A DNA stretch of 36,899 nucleotides from Candidatus Gastranaerophilales bacterium (GTDB lineage: Bacteria > Cyanobacteriota > Vampirovibrionia > Gastranaerophilales > Gastranaerophilaceae): positions 1 through 36,899 of the forward strand of contig CALUPP010000086.1 in NCBI GenBank assembly GCA_944322685.1, in the 5' to 3' direction. Position 1 is the stretch's first letter; every line of letters begins with the position of its first letter. The translations under genes and the position numbers were made by a program. Positions 3,282 through 36,899 of the stretch are shown here, piece by piece. The notes beneath the pieces are model-generated. The model searched no databases. It worked only from the letters and a program-made list of their open reading frames with translations, and was not told the origin of the DNA.

Positions 3282-6200
3282 TTATTTTTGCTCATTTTTC
3301 TTGTGAGCAAATCTTTTTTCAACCCAATCAACCATCGACTGGATTATTACGTAAAAAGCAGGTGTTAAAAGCGTACCGATTGTACCAGCCGCAACCATAC
3401 CGCCGAATACCGTGCTTCCAAGTGAGATACGGCTCTGTGCACCTGCGCCTGTCGCAAGCACGAGCGGTAAAATACCAAGTACGAAAGCGATAACTGTCAT
3501 CATGATTGCCCTGAATCTTATATGAGCAGCCTCGATAGCAGCTTCTTCGATTGATTTTCCGTCCTCCTCATGGAGCACCTTTGCAAATTCTACAATCAAA
3601 ATCGCCTGTTTTGCCGCCATACCGATAAGCATAATCATACCAACCTGAGAATACAGGTCAAATGCCTGCCCCATCATAAGTTGGAATATCAAAGCACCAA
3701 CTGCCGCCAAAGGACAGATTAAAAGTACTGCCATCGGAATTGTCCAGCTTTCATACAAAGCAACCAAGAACAAATATACAAATGTCAGCGCCATCGCAAC
3801 GATAAAGCCAGTTTGACCCGAAGATTCAAGCTCCTGCTTTGAAGTACCAGACCATTCAAAAGAAATATCATTCGGTAATGTTTCCATTGATACCGCTTCC
3901 ATCGCTTTCATAGCCTCACCGGAGCTCTTACCTGTGGCAGGCTGACCGCTGAACTGAACATTTCGATACTGGTTGTATCGGGTAATCTGGTTCGCACCGA
4001 CAGACTGCTTCAATTCGACCATTGTTGAAATCGGTGTCATGATTCCTTGAGAATTTTTAACGTAAATGCCCGAAATATCAGTTGCTTTACGTCTGTATTT
4101 CTGCTCTGCCTGCAATTGAACCCTGAATACACGGCCGAGCTTGTTAAAGTCATTAACGTAGTATGTTCCCAACGTCGAAGACATCGTGCTGTACAAATCA
4201 CTCAGGCTGACGCCCTGTGACATCGCTTTTTCATAGTCAACATCAACAATATACTGCGGAACATTTGCCTGATATGTAGTATAAACGTTATTTAAGTCCT
4301 TATTTTGATTTGCAGCCGCGAGAAGTTTATTAGCCCAAGCCTCCATCTCCTGCGGGGTATATTCACCCTTAGAAAGCATCTGGAATTCAAAACCGCCAAG
4401 CATACTCATACCGGAAATCGCCGGAGGAGAGAAAACACCAACCTGTGCATCTCTAATTGGCGCAATTGCGGTTCTTACGCGGCCCAAAATTGCGTTTGCT
4501 GAAAGGTCAGTATCTTTGCCCTGAATCATTCTGACTAATTTTTGCCAGATATTGAATTCACGTTCAGACCATTCTTTCAATTCAACAACCATGAACGCAG
4601 AGTTTGAAGCCCCCATACCAACGAACATAATTCTGTTGCTTACACCTTCAATATTGCGTATAGCTTTGTCCATCTGCTGGGCAGCCTCAACGGTTCTGCT
4701 GATTGAAGAACCGGCAGGCATTGTAATTTGTGCAAGCAAAACGCCCTGATCCTCATCAGGGATAAATCCTGAGGGAATAACCTTAAACAAAATTAAAAGC
4801 AATATCAAAAATCCGCCATAAACCTTTAAAGTCAGCTTTTTATCATAAACGAAGATTTTAACATACTTCATGTAAACATCAGTAAGTTCTTTAAAGTACA
4901 CATTAAATTTTTCAAATATGAATTTAATCAGCGCCGACGCTTTGTTTGACGGTTTTCTGTTCGGATCTTCTTTTCTCAGGATAATCGAGCACAATGCAGG
5001 CGAAAGTGTCAACGCGCAAACCGCCGAAAGTGCAATTGAAACAGCAATACAAACCGCAAACTGCTTATACATCAACCCTGATAACCCCGGAACAAAGCCC
5101 ATAGGCACAAATACCGCCATAAGTACAAGCGCCATTGCAACAAGCGCACCGCCAACCTCTTGCATAGTCAGCTGAGTCGCTTCTACTGGGTCTTTGCCCT
5201 CCTCAAGGTGCCTTTTTACGTTTTCAATTACAACAATCGCGTCATCGACTACGGTCGCAACCGCCAGTACCATTGCAAATAGCGATAACAGGTTGATTGA
5301 CATTCCGAAAAACGGCAAAGCAAAGAAAGTACCTATCAATGACACAGGAATAGCCAAAAGCGGAACCAATGTAGCCCTTGGGTCACCAAGGAATACAAAT
5401 ATAATCGCAATAACGATAATTGAAGCTTCAACAATCGTATGAACAACTTCTGACATTGATTCGCGAATAAACTGAGTGTCATCGTGCATGATTTTGACGC
5501 TTACGCCGTCAGGAAGCGTTTTTTGGATTTCCTGAAGTTTCGCTTTAACTTCATCCACAATTTCAATTGCATTTGCACCCGGAATTTGTACAATCTGCAT
5601 AAGAGCAGCCGGTTTGTTGTTGACTTCACCGTAAATATTGTACGATTCGGCGCCAAGCTCGACTCTGCCGATATCTTTCATTCTTATAATTGAACCGTCA
5701 AGGTTTGCACGGATAATAATATTTTCAAATTCTTCCGGTTCAAGCAATCTGCCCTTTGTACGCAGAGTAATCTGGAATTTTTGCTTATCAGGGCCCGGTT
5801 CCTGACCTAAAGCGCCGGCAGAAACCTGAATATTTTGTGTTGTTATAGCATTTTGAATTTCTGTAACAGAAACGCCAAGATTTGCCATTTTTTCGGTATC
5901 AAGCCAAATACGCATACTGTAATTGCCCGCACCGAATACGTTAACTTCGCCGACACCGTTCAATCGCGCGATTTCATCCTTAATAAAGATTGATGCATAG
6001 TTAGTCAAATCCAACTGCGACCAGGAACCGTCCTCAGAAACAACGTTCAAAATGCAGACACCGGAGCCGCTAACCTGTTGTTTTGCAGTAACACCGAGCC
6101 TTTTTACGTCTTCAGGAAGTTTCGGCTGAATCTGCTGGATTCGGTTTTGGACATTAACAAGGTCAATATTACGGTCAGAACCGACTTTAAAATAGATTTG

Positions 6201-6506
6201 AAGCTTGTAGGATTCATCCGAGCTCGTCGAAATCATGTAAAGCATGTCCTCAACGCCGTTCACCTGAGCTTCGACAACAGCCGCAACAGACGATTCCACA
6301 ACATCGGCACTTGCGCCGGGATATGAAGCAGAAACCGCAATCTGAGGCGGGGTAATATCTGGATATTTTTCAAGCTGCAATCCCATGATGGAGATTATCC
6401 CGAGAAGCGTGATAAAAATTGAAATTACTATCGCAAATCTCGGCTTCTGGATAAAGAAATACAGATTTTTCTTATTATGTTGTCCGTTGTTATTCTGTTC
6501 AGCCAT
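3282..6506 (-). CDS. RND efflux transporter, HAE1 (AcrB/MexB) family
   Basis: A proton-driven inner-membrane pump for hydrophobic or amphiphilic compounds. Its 1074 residues match the family (about 1030-1070). The first transmembrane helix is near residues 20-42. The proton-relay aspartates are Asp421 and Asp422 in TM4 ([13 protein letters not shown]), and the relay lysine is Lys966 in TM10 ([15 protein letters not shown], where AcrB has N rather than Q after K). Both porter-domain halves and the docking loops are present, for example [14 protein letters not shown] and [15 protein letters not shown]. The C-terminus is short and charged ([13 protein letters not shown]). The start codon overlaps the stop of the membrane-fusion gene by one base (TAATG), indicating coupling. 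It fits HAE1 drug pumps better than heavy-metal CusA types. Substrates are unknown. Confidence 0.95.
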
Positions 6507-9385: not shown

Positions 9386-11188
9386 ATGAAAACAATTGAT
9401 AACGTACGTAATTTTTGCATAATTGCACATATTGACCACGGAAAATCAACACTTGCGGACAGACTGCTTGAAGCGACCGGAACCATCGCAGAACGCGACA
9501 TGCAAGACCAGCTTCTTGACACAATGGATATTGAGCGCGAGCGCGGTATCACAATCAAGCTCAACGCTGCAAGAATGAACTATAAAGCCACAGACGGCAA
9601 GGATTATATCCTAAATTTGATTGACACACCGGGTCATGTGGACTTTTCTTACGAAGTTTCACGCTCGCTTGCGGCTTGTGAGGGCGCTTTGCTTATTGTT
9701 GACGCTACTCAGGGCGTCGAAGCGCAAACATTGTCAAATGTTTACCTTGCAATTGAGCAGGATTTGGAAATTATTCCGGTTATCAACAAAATTGACCTGC
9801 CCTCAGCCGACGTTGAGAGAGTAAAGCAAGAAATCGAAGAGGTTCTGGGCATTGATGCCTCAATTGCCATCCCGGTCAGTGCAAAAACAGGCGAAGGAAT
9901 CGACAAAGTGCTTGAGGCCGTTGTAAATTTTGTACCGCCGCCTCAGGACACCTCTGATAAACCGCTCAGAGCGCTTGTTTTTGACAGCGCTTATGACCCG
10001 TATCTCGGCACATTATGCTTTTTTAAGGTAATCGACGGAAATATTAAACTTGGCGACAAAATTAAATTCATGGCATCGGGCAAAGAATACGAAATTGTCG
10101 AATTGGGCTATTTGAACCCCAAACGGGTTCCTGTAAATGAGCTCAAAACCGGCGACGTAGGCTACATGGCAGGCTCTATTAAAGAATTAACAAGGTTTGT
10201 AGGCGATACTGTAACCCATGTTGATGCGCCTGCGGCAGAACCGCTTCCGGGGTATAAAGAAGCGCTTCCGATGGTATTTTCCGGAATGTATCCGGTCGAT
10301 AATGACGATTATCAGGACTTAAAAGAGGCGTTGGAAAAGCTGAAACTGAATGATTCATCAATCACGTTTGAACCGGAAACGTCTTCTGCGCTTGGTTTCG
10401 GTTTTAGATGCGGCTTTTTGGGAATGCTGCACATGGAAATCGCGCAAGAGCGCCTCGAAAGGGAATATGACCTTGCGCTCGTTACAACTGCGCCTTCAGT
10501 AGTTTACAAAGTGCACAAAACAAATGGAGAAGTCGTTGAAATCGACAATCCAGCCAATTTGCCGGCAGCACAGTATCGCGACTACATTGAAGAGCCTTAT
10601 GTAAAGGTAAATATCATCGCGCCGAACGACTACACGGGAACTTTGATGGATCTTGCGCAGTCAAAACGCGGGATTTTCGTAAATATGCGATATATCGACA
10701 AAATCCGCGTAGATTTGGAATACGAAATCCCTCTGAGCGAAGTTATTGTTGATTTTTACGACCAATTGAAGTCCAGAACAAAAGGTTACGCGAGCATGGA
10801 CTACGAATTCAAGGAATATAAGCGTTCTGACCTTGTAAAACTTGATATTATGCTCGCAGGCGAAGTTGTGGACGCGCTTAGCGCAATTGTCCACAAAGAC
10901 AACGCGTTTTATATCGGGCAAAAACTTACTGCCAAGCTAAAAGACATTATTCCCCGCCAGATGTTTGAAGTTCCGATTCAAGCAGCATACGGCGGCCGAG
11001 TAATCGCAAGAACTAACATAAAAGCGCTCAGAAAAAGCGTTTTGGACAAATGTTACGGCGGTGACATCTCCCGTAAAAGAAAACTTCTTGAAAAACAAAA
11101 ACGAGGGAAAAAACGTATGAAAGCCGTCGGACGGGTTGAGGTTCCGCAAGAGGCGTTTATGGCTGTGCTTTCGCTTAATGATGATTAA
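9386..11188 (+). CDS. lepA: Elongation factor 4 (LepA), back-translocating GTPase
   Basis: A ribosome-associated GTPase that can reverse translocation; about 600 residues is the standard length. All G motifs are present: AHIDHGKST (G1, about residues 15-23), ERGITI (G2), DTPGHVDF (G3), NKIDLP (G4) and SAKTG (G5). The LepA-specific C-terminal domain is intact, with [29 protein letters not shown] and the basic tail [20 protein letters not shown] that separates LepA from EF-G. The start is fixed by the family's N-terminus ([20 protein letters not shown]). There is no Shine-Dalgarno, and a -10 box ends 7 bases before the ATG, so a leaderless mRNA is likely. A terminator follows about 45 bp after the stop. 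Confidence 0.98.
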
Positions 11189-32367: not shown

Positions 32368-33384
32368 ATGAAAAAACCCAATATTGCAGTGCTCGGCGCA
32401 ACCGGCGTGGTCGGAAGAGAAATCCTCAAAATTCTTGTTGAAGATAATGTACAGTACAACGAAATAAAATTCCTGGCGAGCGCAAAAAGTGCCGGAAAAA
32501 CAATAGATTTTAAGGGGGAAAAACATACAATTATCGAAGCGACGCCTGATTCGTTTGAGGGCGTAAATATTGTTCTCGCGTCGGCTGGCGGAGGCACGTC
32601 ATTGAAGCTTGCACCTGAAGCTGTTAAAAGAGGTGCGGTTTATATCGACAATTCCAGCGCATTTCGCATGGAAAAGGATGTTCCGCTTGTTATTGCGGGC
32701 GTAAACGACGATGATTTAAGAAAACATAAGGGCATAATCGCAAATCCGAACTGCTCAACGTCGCAATTAATGCTGGTTTTGAAACCGCTGCACGATTATG
32801 CGCAGATAAAAAGAATGATTGTAAGCACTTATCAGGCGGTTTCCGGCGCAGGACTCGCGGCAATCAACGAACTCAGAGAAAACACAATCGCTGAAAACGA
32901 GGGAAAACCGTTCCAATGCGAAAAATTCAAAAAACCAATCGCTTACAACGTAATTCCGCAAATAGACGTGTTCTGCGAAAACGGCTACACAAAAGAAGAA
33001 ATGAAAGTGACCAACGAAACGAAAAAAATTCTTCATCTTGATGAAAAAACGCCGATTTCCTGCACAGCTGTACGCGTTCCGGTTTTTCACGGGCACTCGG
33101 AAGCCGTAACTATTGAATTTCAAAAGGAAATCACCCCCCAAAAAGCAAGAGAAATCCTTGAAAATGCTTGGGGCGTCGAAGTTATGGACGATATTGAGAA
33201 CTACGTTTACCCGACACCGCGCGATGCAGCCGGAAAAAACCCGGTTTACGTCGGAAGAATCAGAAAAAACATAGCTTTTGACAATGCAATCGACCTATGG
33301 TGCGTCGCGGACAACATCAGAATCGGCGCTGCACTAAATACTGTCAGACTAGCGGAAAAAGTCATTGAAATGCAGCTTTTTTAA
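32368..33384 (+). CDS. asd: Aspartate-semialdehyde dehydrogenase
   Basis: Reduces aspartyl phosphate to aspartate semialdehyde with NADPH, the branch point to lysine/diaminopimelate, threonine and methionine. At 338 residues it has the standard length. The dinucleotide loop is GATGVVGREIL (about residues 10-20). Cys129 (ANPNCSTSQ) is the catalytic nucleophile. TYQAVSGAG and the later RVPVFHGHSEAVTIEF (with the catalytic His) are present. The C-terminal NIRIGAALNTVRLAE is typical. An AGGCGG Shine-Dalgarno lies about 9 bases before the ATG. It is co-directional with queA, 16 bp away, so they share an operon. Confidence 0.97.
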   Translation: MKKPNIAVLGATGVVGREILKILVEDNVQYNEIKFLASAKSAGKTIDFKGEKHTIIEATPDSFEGVNIVLASAGGGTSLKLAPEAVKRGAVYIDNSSAFRMEKDVPLVIAGVNDDDLRKHKGIIANPNCSTSQLMLVLKPLHDYAQIKRMIVSTYQAVSGAGLAAINELRENTIAENEGKPFQCEKFKKPIAYNVIPQIDVFCENGYTKEEMKVTNETKKILHLDEKTPISCTAVRVPVFHGHSEAVTIEFQKEITPQKAREILENAWGVEVMDDIENYVYPTPRDAAGKNPVYVGRIRKNIAFDNAIDLWCVADNIRIGAALNTVRLAEKVIEMQLF

Positions 33385-33400: not shown

Positions 33401-34468
33401 ATGAGCTTTGGTAAAGAAAAAACAATGATGAAATTAAGCGATTTTGACTACGAACTTCCCAAAGAGCTCATAGCCCAAATTCCTGAACAAAAAAGAGAAA
33501 ATTCAAAGATGATGGTGCTCGACAGAAAGGACAAAACCATTGAGCATCGCCATTTTTACGATATTTGCGACTATTTTGACGAAAACGACGTGCTTGTGCT
33601 TAACAATACAAAGGTTATCCCCGCGCGGCTATACGGAAAAAAGGAAACCGGCGCAAATATTGAGGTTTTTCTGCTGAAAATCATTAGCGGCAAGACCTGG
33701 CAGGTGCTTTTGAACCCGTCAAAGCGCATTAAAGAAGAAATGATTATAAAAATCTCCGACGAGCTCAGCGCAAAAGTCCTGACACGCGAAGATAACGGAA
33801 AATGGCTAGTTGAAATGATTTATGACGGAAATTTTTACGATATTATCCGCAAAATCGGGAATATTCCGCTTCCGCCATACATTGAGCGCAATATGACGAA
33901 CGAACAGCTAAAAAATCTCGATTATGAGCGTTATCAGACCGTTTTTGCACAAAAAGAGGGTTCTGTGGCCGCGCCGACAGCAGGTTTGCACTTTACTGAC
34001 GAAATTCTTGAAAAACTCAAGGCAAAAGGCGTAACAATCTGCTACGTTACGCTAAATGTGGGCCTGGGCACGTTCAAACCCGTAAAAACCGAAAACATTC
34101 TTGAGCACAAAATGGAATCAGAAGAATTTGAAATTTCAAAAGAAACAGCAGAAATAATTATGAACGCAAAAAAGGCAGGGAAAAGGATTACAGCCGTCGG
34201 AACAACCACCGTTCGCACGCTCGAAACCTGCATGCAAAAATATGATGAAATTTTGGAAGTTATTGATGATTCAACGCTTTTTATTTATCCGGGCTTCAAT
34301 TTCAGGGTTATTGACCGGCTGATTACGAATTTCCATCTGCCAAAATCCACGCTGATTATGCTGGTAAGCGCTTTTGCCGGGAAAGATTTCATTTTTAAAG
34401 CGTATGAAGAAGCGATTAAAGAGAAATACAGGTTTTACAGCTACGGCGATTGCATGCTCATTGAATAA
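33401..34468 (+). CDS. queA: S-adenosylmethionine:tRNA ribosyltransferase-isomerase (QueA)
   Basis: Transfers the ribosyl group of SAM to 7-aminomethyl-7-deazaguanine in tRNA, making epoxyqueuosine. It has 355 residues from ATG 33401 (347 from the in-frame ATG at 33425, which gives MMKLSDFDYELPKELIAQ and fits the family N-terminus better; both are possible). Family blocks are visible: VLVLNNTKVIPARL, GNIPLPPYI, ERYQTVFAQKEGSVAAPTAG, LHFTDEIL, LNVGLGTFKPV and FRVIDRLITNFHLPKSTLIM. It follows asd in the same operon. AAAGGA lies 12 bases before the first ATG. No other queuosine genes are in the window. Confidence 0.97.
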   Translation: MSFGKEKTMMKLSDFDYELPKELIAQIPEQKRENSKMMVLDRKDKTIEHRHFYDICDYFDENDVLVLNNTKVIPARLYGKKETGANIEVFLLKIISGKTWQVLLNPSKRIKEEMIIKISDELSAKVLTREDNGKWLVEMIYDGNFYDIIRKIGNIPLPPYIERNMTNEQLKNLDYERYQTVFAQKEGSVAAPTAGLHFTDEILEKLKAKGVTICYVTLNVGLGTFKPVKTENILEHKMESEEFEISKETAEIIMNAKKAGKRITAVGTTTVRTLETCMQKYDEILEVIDDSTLFIYPGFNFRVIDRLITNFHLPKSTLIMLVSAFAGKDFIFKAYEEAIKEKYRFYSYGDCMLIE

Positions 34469-34576: not shown

Positions 34577-36502
34577 ATGTCATTGATTGGAGCAATCAAG
34601 AGCTTCCTTGGCGTAGGAGAAGCCAAAACCGAGGATTCAAAAAAAGAAACCCAAATAAGAACAGCAGCCGACCCCGCCACCGGAAAAATCGGCACAATGC
34701 TCCTCACGGGCCAAATTTCAGAAACGGAAGCACACTCAGGGCAAAACGGCCAGCAAACAAACACCGGCGCAGGCGACACTTATACTGCTGCTCCCGTAAA
34801 AGACGTCGAAATTGACGTCAAAAAGATGGCAAAAACATACAAAAAGAACCCGCTTGAAGCGCTCAAAGACGTCACAATCGGAAGAACATACTCCGCAGAA
34901 GAAGCTGAAGAACTCAAAGAACTTTTGCAAGACAAAGATGACCTGCAAAACTATTTTGAATTGGCTAAAAAGGGAACTTTGTCCAACAAAGACATCATTG
35001 CAGGTTTAAAAGAACTCACCGCTAACAAAACATCATATTTGTGGGGTTTGATTAAAGGAAACAAACTCGATGAAGAAAAATTTGCATCAAATATGAGCAG
35101 AGTTCGCAAAATCAGAAAAGAATTCACTTCAAACGGCGTAGCGCACATATCAAAGGTTATTACAAAAAATGAAGAATTCACGGATACGGCTGTTCACATG
35201 ATGTCGAAACGCGATACTTACAACGAAGAAAACGTCATTGAGGGCGTAGACTATATGGAAGAAAACCCTAAAAACGCCGAAGCGTTCTTCAACAATATGG
35301 TTGAGATGGAAGAAATCCGCAAAGACAACGGCGCGATAAAATACAAAGGCGACACAATCTTGAAAGTAACGAAAGCAAGAACGTCAAACGCCCAAATTTC
35401 TACTGCACTTATAAAAGCAGCAAAAAGAACGGACATGAACGACGAAAGTTTGACAAAAATCACAGATAACGTTGAAAGCACGCCGCAGATGGCAAAAGCA
35501 ATGGAAGATTTCATTGATAAAAAGAACTCAAAAGGCGAATTTACATTCAACGCTAAGAATTTGGAAGATCAATCATCATACTTAGTGGGAAAAAGCACTA
35601 AAACGATTGAATCATACAGAAAAAACACATTGGAACTTGCCGGATATGACAAAATGCTCGGAGATGCGATAGTAGAATGCGCACAAAGAGTAACTGACTA
35701 CCCGCAAACTCTTGAAGAAGTCATGACAGCCGCAGCAGACAAAAATATCAGCTGCGAAGAGGTGGTCACGATTTCAAAAAGCCTTACAAATCCGGCAGAA
35801 GCTTATAATACACAAAAAGCTACTGCAAACTCCGCAGCAACTAACAATTTTGCAACAGAAAAAGAAAGCATCGCTACTGCAAGTGAAGCAAAATACGTTC
35901 AGAGCGGCGCAAATTACTTACAAACAGCAGAACCCCAAGAATTAAGAACATCACAGGCAATGACTGCACCGATGAACACAGAAACTACGGCAAGAAAAGA
36001 TATAACAAGAGTTTTTGGTAACGAAAGCGACTTTGAATATGTTGCTGAACAGGTAAAAAAAGCTCCTGAACTCAAGCCAATCATTGCAAAACTCTATTTT
36101 AACCCTAACATGCCAGCAAATAAAATCGCAGGACTAATAAAACAGTATTCAACGCAGGAACTTGAAGTTTACGCGAACGATCCTATTTACTTTGAGCAAA
36201 ACCCGCAAATGCTGAAACTTTACATCAAAAATAAAAGCTTTTTTGACAAGTTAAGTCTATACGGTGTACCCGCAAAACAAAAAGAGCAGCTTGCTGCATT
36301 TGCGAGCGGGCCGTCAAAAGAACTTCTTTTTGAAATGCTCGACAACGGCATCTCAGCGGACAAAGTTCTTTCATATCTCACGACAGCAAAACAAGAAAAC
36401 AAAGAAAATGAGTTAAAAACACTTGTAACAGACGCCACTATCAACAGCGCAGAAAGGCTTGCTAAATTACGCAACAAAGATTTTACCAAAACTACTGTTT
36501 AA
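34577..36502 (+). CDS. Large unrecognised alpha-helical repeat protein
   Basis: 641 residues, no family recognised, no signal peptide. Residues about 1-75 are polar and disordered (TEAHSGQNGQQTNTGAGD). From about 75 to 410 the protein is helical with internal similarity: the segment NEEFTDTAVHMMSKRDTYNE (with VDYMEENPKNAEAFFNNM) and NAQISTALIKAAKRTDMNDE (with VESTPQMAKAMEDFIDKK) share spacing of Asn, Ala, Lys-Arg and Pro. A Ser/Thr/Ala linker (about 415-480) precedes a second helical region (about 485-641) ending KLRNKDFTKTTV. The pattern suggests an alpha-solenoid scaffold. AGGA sits about 7 bases before the ATG. The reading frame stays open for 53 codons after the TAA at 36500-36502, so the 3' end may be disrupted or readable. 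Confidence 0.7.
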   Translation: MSLIGAIKSFLGVGEAKTEDSKKETQIRTAADPATGKIGTMLLTGQISETEAHSGQNGQQTNTGAGDTYTAAPVKDVEIDVKKMAKTYKKNPLEALKDVTIGRTYSAEEAEELKELLQDKDDLQNYFELAKKGTLSNKDIIAGLKELTANKTSYLWGLIKGNKLDEEKFASNMSRVRKIRKEFTSNGVAHISKVITKNEEFTDTAVHMMSKRDTYNEENVIEGVDYMEENPKNAEAFFNNMVEMEEIRKDNGAIKYKGDTILKVTKARTSNAQISTALIKAAKRTDMNDESLTKITDNVESTPQMAKAMEDFIDKKNSKGEFTFNAKNLEDQSSYLVGKSTKTIESYRKNTLELAGYDKMLGDAIVECAQRVTDYPQTLEEVMTAAADKNISCEEVVTISKSLTNPAEAYNTQKATANSAATNNFATEKESIATASEAKYVQSGANYLQTAEPQELRTSQAMTAPMNTETTARKDITRVFGNESDFEYVAEQVKKAPELKPIIAKLYFNPNMPANKIAGLIKQYSTQELEVYANDPIYFEQNPQMLKLYIKNKSFFDKLSLYGVPAKQKEQLAAFASGPSKELLFEMLDNGISADKVLSYLTTAKQENKENELKTLVTDATINSAERLAKLRNKDFTKTTV

Positions 36503-36664
36503 CAAATTTTAAAAGGGTTTACAGCAAAAAGCGCAAAAGAGCGCTTGACCATGCCACAAGTTAATGTTAATTTATACATGGCGTTGGCTAAAATCCACAG
36601 GAAAAAACTCAATTTCGACTTTTCTAAAAGAGTTAAGCTCATAAACGCCAATTACCGGTTATGA
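36503..36664 (+). other. Open 53-codon in-frame extension beyond the stop of the 641-residue gene
   Basis: Directly after TAA (36500-36502) the same frame runs open for 53 codons to TGA at 36662-36664. The last 37 codons begin at an ATG (36551) and read MPQVNVNLYMALAKIHRKKL followed by 17 residues. The composition is protein-like. There is no Shine-Dalgarno at 36551. A GCGC hairpin (36529-36546) lies inside. It could be the lost C-terminus of the upstream gene, a separate small gene, or chance. Confidence 0.35.
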
Positions 36665-36667
36665 AAA

Positions 36668-36811
36668 GCCACGGGCCTGTGGCACTCTGCCGAAAAAAAA
36701 CGATTGAGTATCGTTTTTTTGAGAGGTAGGTAGCGTCGCTGCCGCTGCGCCCGATTGACAAGTTAATAATTTCATATCGCCACGAGCCTGTGGCACTCTG
36801 CCGAAAAAAAA
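36668..36811. repeat. 33-bp repeat with hairpins, two copies 111 bp apart
   Basis: Copies at 36668-36700 and 36779-36811 differ at one base (GCCACGGG against GCCACGAG). Each contains GCCAC/GTGGC and GGCA/TGCC stem-loops and ends in eight A. The second copy runs into degraded sequence, so it may come from a poor-quality read tail rather than the chromosome. The first copy could be an interspersed palindromic element. Confidence 0.55.
36694..36720. terminator. Terminator-like hairpin at the end of the window
   Basis: An 11-bp stem, AAAAAAACGAT (36694-36704) and ATCGTTTTTTT (36710-36720), with a 5-base loop; it could stop transcription in either direction. It is part of the repeat unit just described and is the nearest candidate terminator for the 641-residue gene. 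Confidence 0.5.
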
Positions 36812-36828
36812 GGATGGGGAATGGTTTT

Positions 36829-36899
36829 TGATTGGGAGAGGGGCCGGGAGGGAAAGAGGGTAGAATTTCGTGGTTGCCGGATCCATAAAAAAAAAAAAA
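36829..36899 (+). other. Corrupted Illumina adapter read-through plus poly-A (artefact)
   Basis: From about 36829 the sequence aligns without gaps to the reverse complement of the Illumina TruSeq universal adapter: GATTGGGAGAG (36830) against GATCGGAAGAG, AGGGAAAGAG identical at 36849-36858, GTAGA, GTGGT.GCCG and AT.C before a run of 13 A. I count about 41 of 58 adapter bases matching, and many of the errors are T read as G. This is non-biological. Confidence 0.85.

Follow-up and report, generated by a model that had tools for sequence, protein, structure and literature searches.

Adapter read-through at a contig end and a tRNA-gene-associated hairpin repeat in Gastranaerophilales

Contig C86 of a Candidatus Gastranaerophilales bacterium (36,899 nucleotides, analysed here in full and referred to as the window) carries no real feature in bases 36829-36899; these bases are almost certainly a sequencing artefact, consisting of adapter read-through followed by poly-A, rather than biology. 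What is apparently undescribed in this contig is the repeat next to them. The repeat unit is real and consists of a partial copy of a tRNA-gene end, interrupted at nt 11/12 by a hairpin module, here designated X; the 'second repeat copy' mentioned in the original prediction is likewise real, being part of a family-wide repeat attached to tRNA genes. As the window represents one entire contig of a 1.9-Mb draft genome in 117 contigs, position 36899 is the true contig end, and the terminal region is made up as follows:

36673-36683, plus strand: copy of the first 11 nt of tRNA-Met(CAT), GGGCCTGTGGC; identical to the tRNA-Met 5' end in relatives L016 and L023 and located directly before X copy 1
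36684-36726, plus strand: X copy 1 (ACTCTGCCG, stem-loop, GAGAGG); matches the pattern, hairpin z-score -4.6, stem covariation
36727-36778, plus strand: remainder of unit 1 (D-loop-like GGTAGCG, inverted tRNA-5'-like segment, leader with TTGACAAGTTAATA); same part order in relatives
36784-36794, plus strand: second copy of the tRNA 5' end, GAGCCTGTGGC; one mismatch to the first
36795-36811, plus strand: start of X copy 2, still reliable, ACTCTGCCGAAAAAAAA; the contig break falls within this copy
36812-36828, plus strand: misread stem-loop of X copy 2, of genomic origin; approximately 28% errors relative to copy 1
36829-36886, plus strand: TruSeq universal adapter, reverse complement; 41/58 identities without gaps, error-rich, non-genomic
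36887-36899, plus strand: poly-A run-off, non-genomic; 13 A from the adapter's last base to the contig end

Genes elsewhere in the window, as assigned by Pfam, comprise:

3282-6506: AcrB-type efflux pump
9386-11188: LepA
32368-33384: semialdehyde dehydrogenase
33401-34468: queuosine synthesis protein (QueA type)

A protein of 641 aa encoded at 34577-36502 has no Pfam match; it has relatives of about 40% identity in two genomes of the same genus and of 31% identity, over partial length, in another genus.

The terminal sequence of the contig

Several common Illumina adapters were slid along both strands of the window without gaps, among them the 58-nt TruSeq universal adapter. This adapter alone stands out, with 41 of 58 identities at 36829-36886 in reverse complement, while Nextera, TruSeq indexed and small-RNA adapters do not fit the tail. 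The second-best position for the same adapter in an ungapped slide over both strands of the window reaches 30/58, the best of 3000 composition-matched Markov sequences of the tail 32/58, and the best of 1000 shuffled adapters, each slid over the whole window, 35/58. An unaltered AGGGAAAGAG block lies inside the match, and the 13 A residues begin one base beyond the adapter's end, so that the gapless adapter match with its identical block, the poly-A expected when a read runs off its fragment and the proposed alignment of the contig end to the adapter are all borne out. The alignment also reveals that an i5 index is absent between AGGGAAAGAG and the flow-cell part, which identifies it as the universal adapter of the single-index type. 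In the core and the reverse-specific part, the query agrees with the adapter as given in PMC11536531.

A search of the same genome with the adapter core AGGGAAAGAGTGTAGATCTCGG returned one exact match, near the start of contig C115 and in the opposite orientation, where the full adapter is found at 38-95 with 54 of 58 identities. This constitutes independent proof of adapter contamination in the assembly, and it is the combination of the C115 adapter, the position at the contig end and the adjoining poly-A that leads us to accept a match as degraded as 41/58. In positions 1-120 of C115 (L035), the bases before the adapter resemble the genomic sequence just after it (GTTCAAAATG.CGGGAGAAAGTTGT), and the start of this contig is therefore chimeric. 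In contaminated microbial assemblies, contigs have been reported to end in the adapter or to start with its reverse complement (PMC11536531); the present assembly is similar in that the adapter ends one contig and its reverse complement starts another, with the reverse-specific part CGTCGTGTAGGGAAAGAGTGT, but differs in that the adapter in C86 is so error-rich that an exact search with AGATCGGAAGAG misses it. Filters that depend on exact adapter matches would equally miss the C86 tail.

The 17 mismatches to the adapter (17/58, 29%) comprise five T>G, four C>T, two G>C, two T>A and four single changes. T>G is thus the commonest class, but at five of 17 it does not bear out the statement that the mismatches are mostly of this kind. 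A comparable error rate is found before the adapter: the first 33 bases of repeat copy 2 differ from copy 1 at one position and the next 18 at five (28%), namely 36812 C>G, 36816 T>G, 36818 A>G, 36820 T>A and 36823 C>G. The original prediction was accordingly right that the second copy is degraded, while its proposed onset near 36800 has to be moved to 36812, directly after a run of eight A residues at the foot of the hairpin. These changes weaken the hairpin of copy 2 from -9.4 to -5.9 kcal/mol, while the hairpin is kept in other copies. Since the error rates are alike (5/18 and 17/58), one poor read plausibly covers both the misread repeat and the adapter. The usable sequence of C86 stops at about 36811. 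An open frame of 86 codons on the minus strand (36639-36899) begins in the artefact and, as the sequence is unreliable past approximately 36811, is meaningless at its start, in agreement with the earlier caution against interpreting ORFs or structures at the contig end. We recommend that 36812-36899 be trimmed and that any ORF or structure in this stretch be disregarded.

There is next to no probability that the tail is natural DNA, such as a diverged part of the repeat or the next gene, which resembles the adapter by chance; it does lie directly 3' of a genuine repeat whose copies in the family show stem variation, but the 41/58 match exceeds the shuffled-adapter maximum, the poly-A begins exactly where the adapter stops, C115 also contains adapter, and the stem weakened in copy 2 is one in which nearly all distinct copies of X, across the four tabulated length classes, keep the inner pairs. 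Read-through with run-off was the sole reading found that covers the ungapped full-length match, the start of the poly-A, the equal error rates and the adapter in C115. On this reading, the sequencing of a short fragment would have continued beyond the insert, first through the TruSeq universal adapter and, past the end of the molecule, as poly-A, with base calling failing already at 36812, before the adapter, and this low-quality read would have been retained by the assembler as the last stretch of C86.

The assembly break itself may be attributed to the tandem array of near-identical units of approximately 111 bp before a tRNA gene. Such arrays, with near-identical units of approximately 90-125 bp, are hard to resolve with short reads and are often found at contig ends, which would explain the break; among the copies of X listed from other genomes, at least 17 begin no more than 200 nt from the start of their contig (counted by eye). 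We infer that C86 is one case of an array-caused break to which the poor read was appended, consistent with the unit structure, and that X arrays account for some assembly breaks in these genomes. When the natural continuation of C86 was sought in the same genome, no other contig was found with the X unit of C86, nor was a tRNA-Met start. As such a start is absent elsewhere in the assembly, the contig probably broke just before tRNA-Met, this being the probable gene flanked by the array and missing from the assembly.

A repeat attached to tRNA genes

The repeat copies in C86 begin at 36668 and 36779, and a second array of the same genome (C89, 7870-8050) lies directly before tRNA-Lys. A consensus scan identified no promoter-like site upstream of the array. 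X is a hairpin module of 39-47 nt with the form ACTCTGCCG-stem-loop-GAGAGG. A search for the repeat in 29 related genomes gave matches in 16, and a tRNA gene adjoins nearly every locus that was fetched. In these loci the parts keep a constant order: the first 11 nt of the adjacent tRNA gene, X, a D-loop-like stretch, in many cases an inverted second stretch, and a leader that includes a TTGAAAACTTAATA-like sequence. The leader is succeeded by a further unit or by the tRNA gene in full. The loci considered are the window (36668-36811), C89 7870-8050, L016-L034, L040-L119 and L183-L222; the collections of X overlap and were drawn from pattern searches, and the counts given below thus describe these sets and are not population estimates.

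X is present in 169 of 192 genomes of the order Gastranaerophilales, these being 165 of 170 in the family of the present genome and four of 22 in the other families, with 0 to 80 copies per genome, while a reversed control pattern gave no matches. Outside the order, five single, non-palindromic matches were obtained as against five control matches, which places X at chance level there. In a pattern scan of named genomes, nearly all informative names were Gastranaerophilales or Melainabacteria among the matches listed, the other listed records being gut bacteria and a few oddly labelled bins; no viral contig matched the GTGGC-prefixed X pattern. The stem shows covariation among 181 distinct copies of X. 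In copies of the 41-nt class, positions 17 and 29 form C-G in 28, A-T in 12 and T-A in nine, so that 49 of 49 are paired as compared with 25.7 expected from independent columns. Palindrome correction could produce such covariation as well as selection could.

With respect to location, 286 copies with distinct flanks were considered, of which 221 are directed towards a tRNA gene: 199 towards its 5' end within 420 nt and 22, in antisense, towards its 3' end. Of the remaining 65, 42 lie so close to the edge of the retrieved sequence that they could not be judged. On the 5' side, 161 of the 199 copies have their junction at tRNA nt 11 or 12, and 20 have it at nt 17-20. The 3'-side copies mirror this arrangement with the last 11-12 nt of the tRNA on the antisense strand; the distance between junction and gene end is 11 or 12 nt in 14 of 22 copies and 14 nt in three, where the encoded CCA is possibly included. 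In the first collection, an exact 11-mer of the own tRNA precedes X in 72 of 83 copies, as against a mean of 7.1/11 when other isotypes are compared with the same 11-mer, a figure that includes five bases fixed by the scan pattern.

At L193 (689-894), X lies on the 3' side of a 5S rRNA gene without a tRNA. Five further loci (L194, L195, L199, L041 and L048) contain X without a nearby tRNA or Rfam match, with AGCAGAGTGC or TTTTGAGTGGC recurring before X. The flanks of such tRNA-less copies may represent another structured RNA or a tRNA remnant.

Origin and possible role of module X

Our tentative reading, which we hold at somewhat below an even chance, is that X is mobile, a short palindrome that does not move autonomously and that inserts into tRNA-gene ends which have been duplicated, leaving the complete tRNA gene intact. 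Presence and absence at the same type of site, as would be characteristic of a mobile palindrome, is observed at tRNA-Met and tRNA-Lys: among the genes with enough flanking sequence, X lies up- or downstream in 20 of 49 and is absent from 29. Furthermore, two copies of X occur within one D-loop copy at L043, L048, L050 and L090. It is the covarying stem, the presence in 20 of 49 genes and these doubly occupied D-loop copies that favour a mobile module over a fixed regulatory part. The sense orientation at 5' ends, the antisense orientation at 3' ends, the mirrored junctions and the restriction to one order were also counted in favour of mobility. An enzyme that moves X was not found, and Y1 transposases do not track it; a same-site pair of empty and filled loci with conserved flanks was likewise not obtained, the gene order at the C89 tRNA-Lys (with its pdxJ-like neighbour) being unconserved in relatives.

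X arrays might alternatively act in cis as regulators of the pre-tRNA, in that the decoy of the tRNA 5' end, together with a partly complementary segment, could delay or switch folding, processing or termination. The C86 unit folds better than shuffled sequences (z -2.7), the part following X is similar to the 5' region of its own tRNA in reverse complement, with a mean alignment score of 17.5 versus 13.6 for other isotypes, the X stem covaries, and X lies upstream on the sense strand in 199 of 221 tRNA-directed copies, all of which would suit a regulator. We nevertheless regard this as unlikely, given the 22 antisense copies at 3' ends with their mirrored junctions, the copy at the 3' side of 5S rRNA, the same tRNA occurring without X in 29 of 49 cases, and a copy number that ranges from 0 to 80 per genome.

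Rather improbable, too, is that X spread solely by recombination among tRNA genes, i.e. by tandem duplication and gene conversion without a transposable element. Near-identical units within an array and the duplication of the leader and tRNA end along with X are as such processes would leave them, but X is found at many isotypes, at both gene ends and at two D-loop positions, and two copies with different stems can share one D-loop copy.

Movement of X as a REP-type element by a RAYT transposase (Y1, IS200/IS605-like) seems quite doubtful. X is a short imperfect palindrome of REP size, Cyanobacteria possess REP families (PMC3733652), and one Y1 gene in G007 adjoins X and tRNA-Gln; against this, Y1_Tnp is present in just 16 of 40 genomes and in none of the X-rich genomes G142, G185 and G011, X is found in the examined flanks of just two of 29 Y1 loci, and X carries neither a GTAG nor a CGTC tag.

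Returning to a mobile palindrome, X could well be of an undescribed kind, though we would stop a little short of even confidence in this: such an element would invade duplicated tRNA ends at a constant site, 11-12 nt from either gene terminus, would build tandem arrays of decoys of these ends, would be near-universal in one family of Gastranaerophilales and would maybe alter tRNA expression. If X is indeed a palindromic repeat at one fixed point of tRNA ends with a mirror form at the 3' end, it would newly illustrate the way in which small elements locate safe sites. The occurrence of the same tRNA with and without an array also provides natural replicates in which effects on tRNA expression may be tested.

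Comparison with known repeats

REP elements are defined as palindromes with a GTAG or CGTC tag on one side (PMC3733652). X resembles the REPtrons formed by REP and RAYT in being palindromic (20-40 bp in REPtrons), present in high copy number, possibly transcribed and probably mobile, but differs from them in its lack of a constant link to a Y1 transposase and in being bound to tRNA-gene ends (PMC3733652). Every copy collected with the X pattern has ACTCTGCCG and GAGAGG at its ends rather than a REP tag, and X shows no consistent association with a Y1 transposase gene.

Palindromic elements of Rickettsia are best known from protein genes. As described in PMC3733652, they are, like X, palindromes that insert into genes and for which a transposase is not known; they end in CGTC (PMC3733652), whereas X sits in partial copies of tRNA ends. 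Literature searches for Gastranaerophilales repeats at tRNA genes and for MITEs upstream of tRNA genes returned nothing relevant among the papers covered, and one for rtT repeats yielded papers on other subjects; with neither an Rfam family nor a paper found, X is apparently undescribed.

The rtT repeats of Escherichia coli tyrT (Rfam RtT) are tandem units of about 178 bp beside a tRNA gene, each with a copy of the tRNA end. Rfam gave no match in the window and tRNA only at seven X loci, with RtT matched in neither. X arrays are similar to rtT in that tandem units adjoin a tRNA gene and every unit holds a tRNA-end copy, while rtT lacks X and is situated at the 3' end of a single locus.
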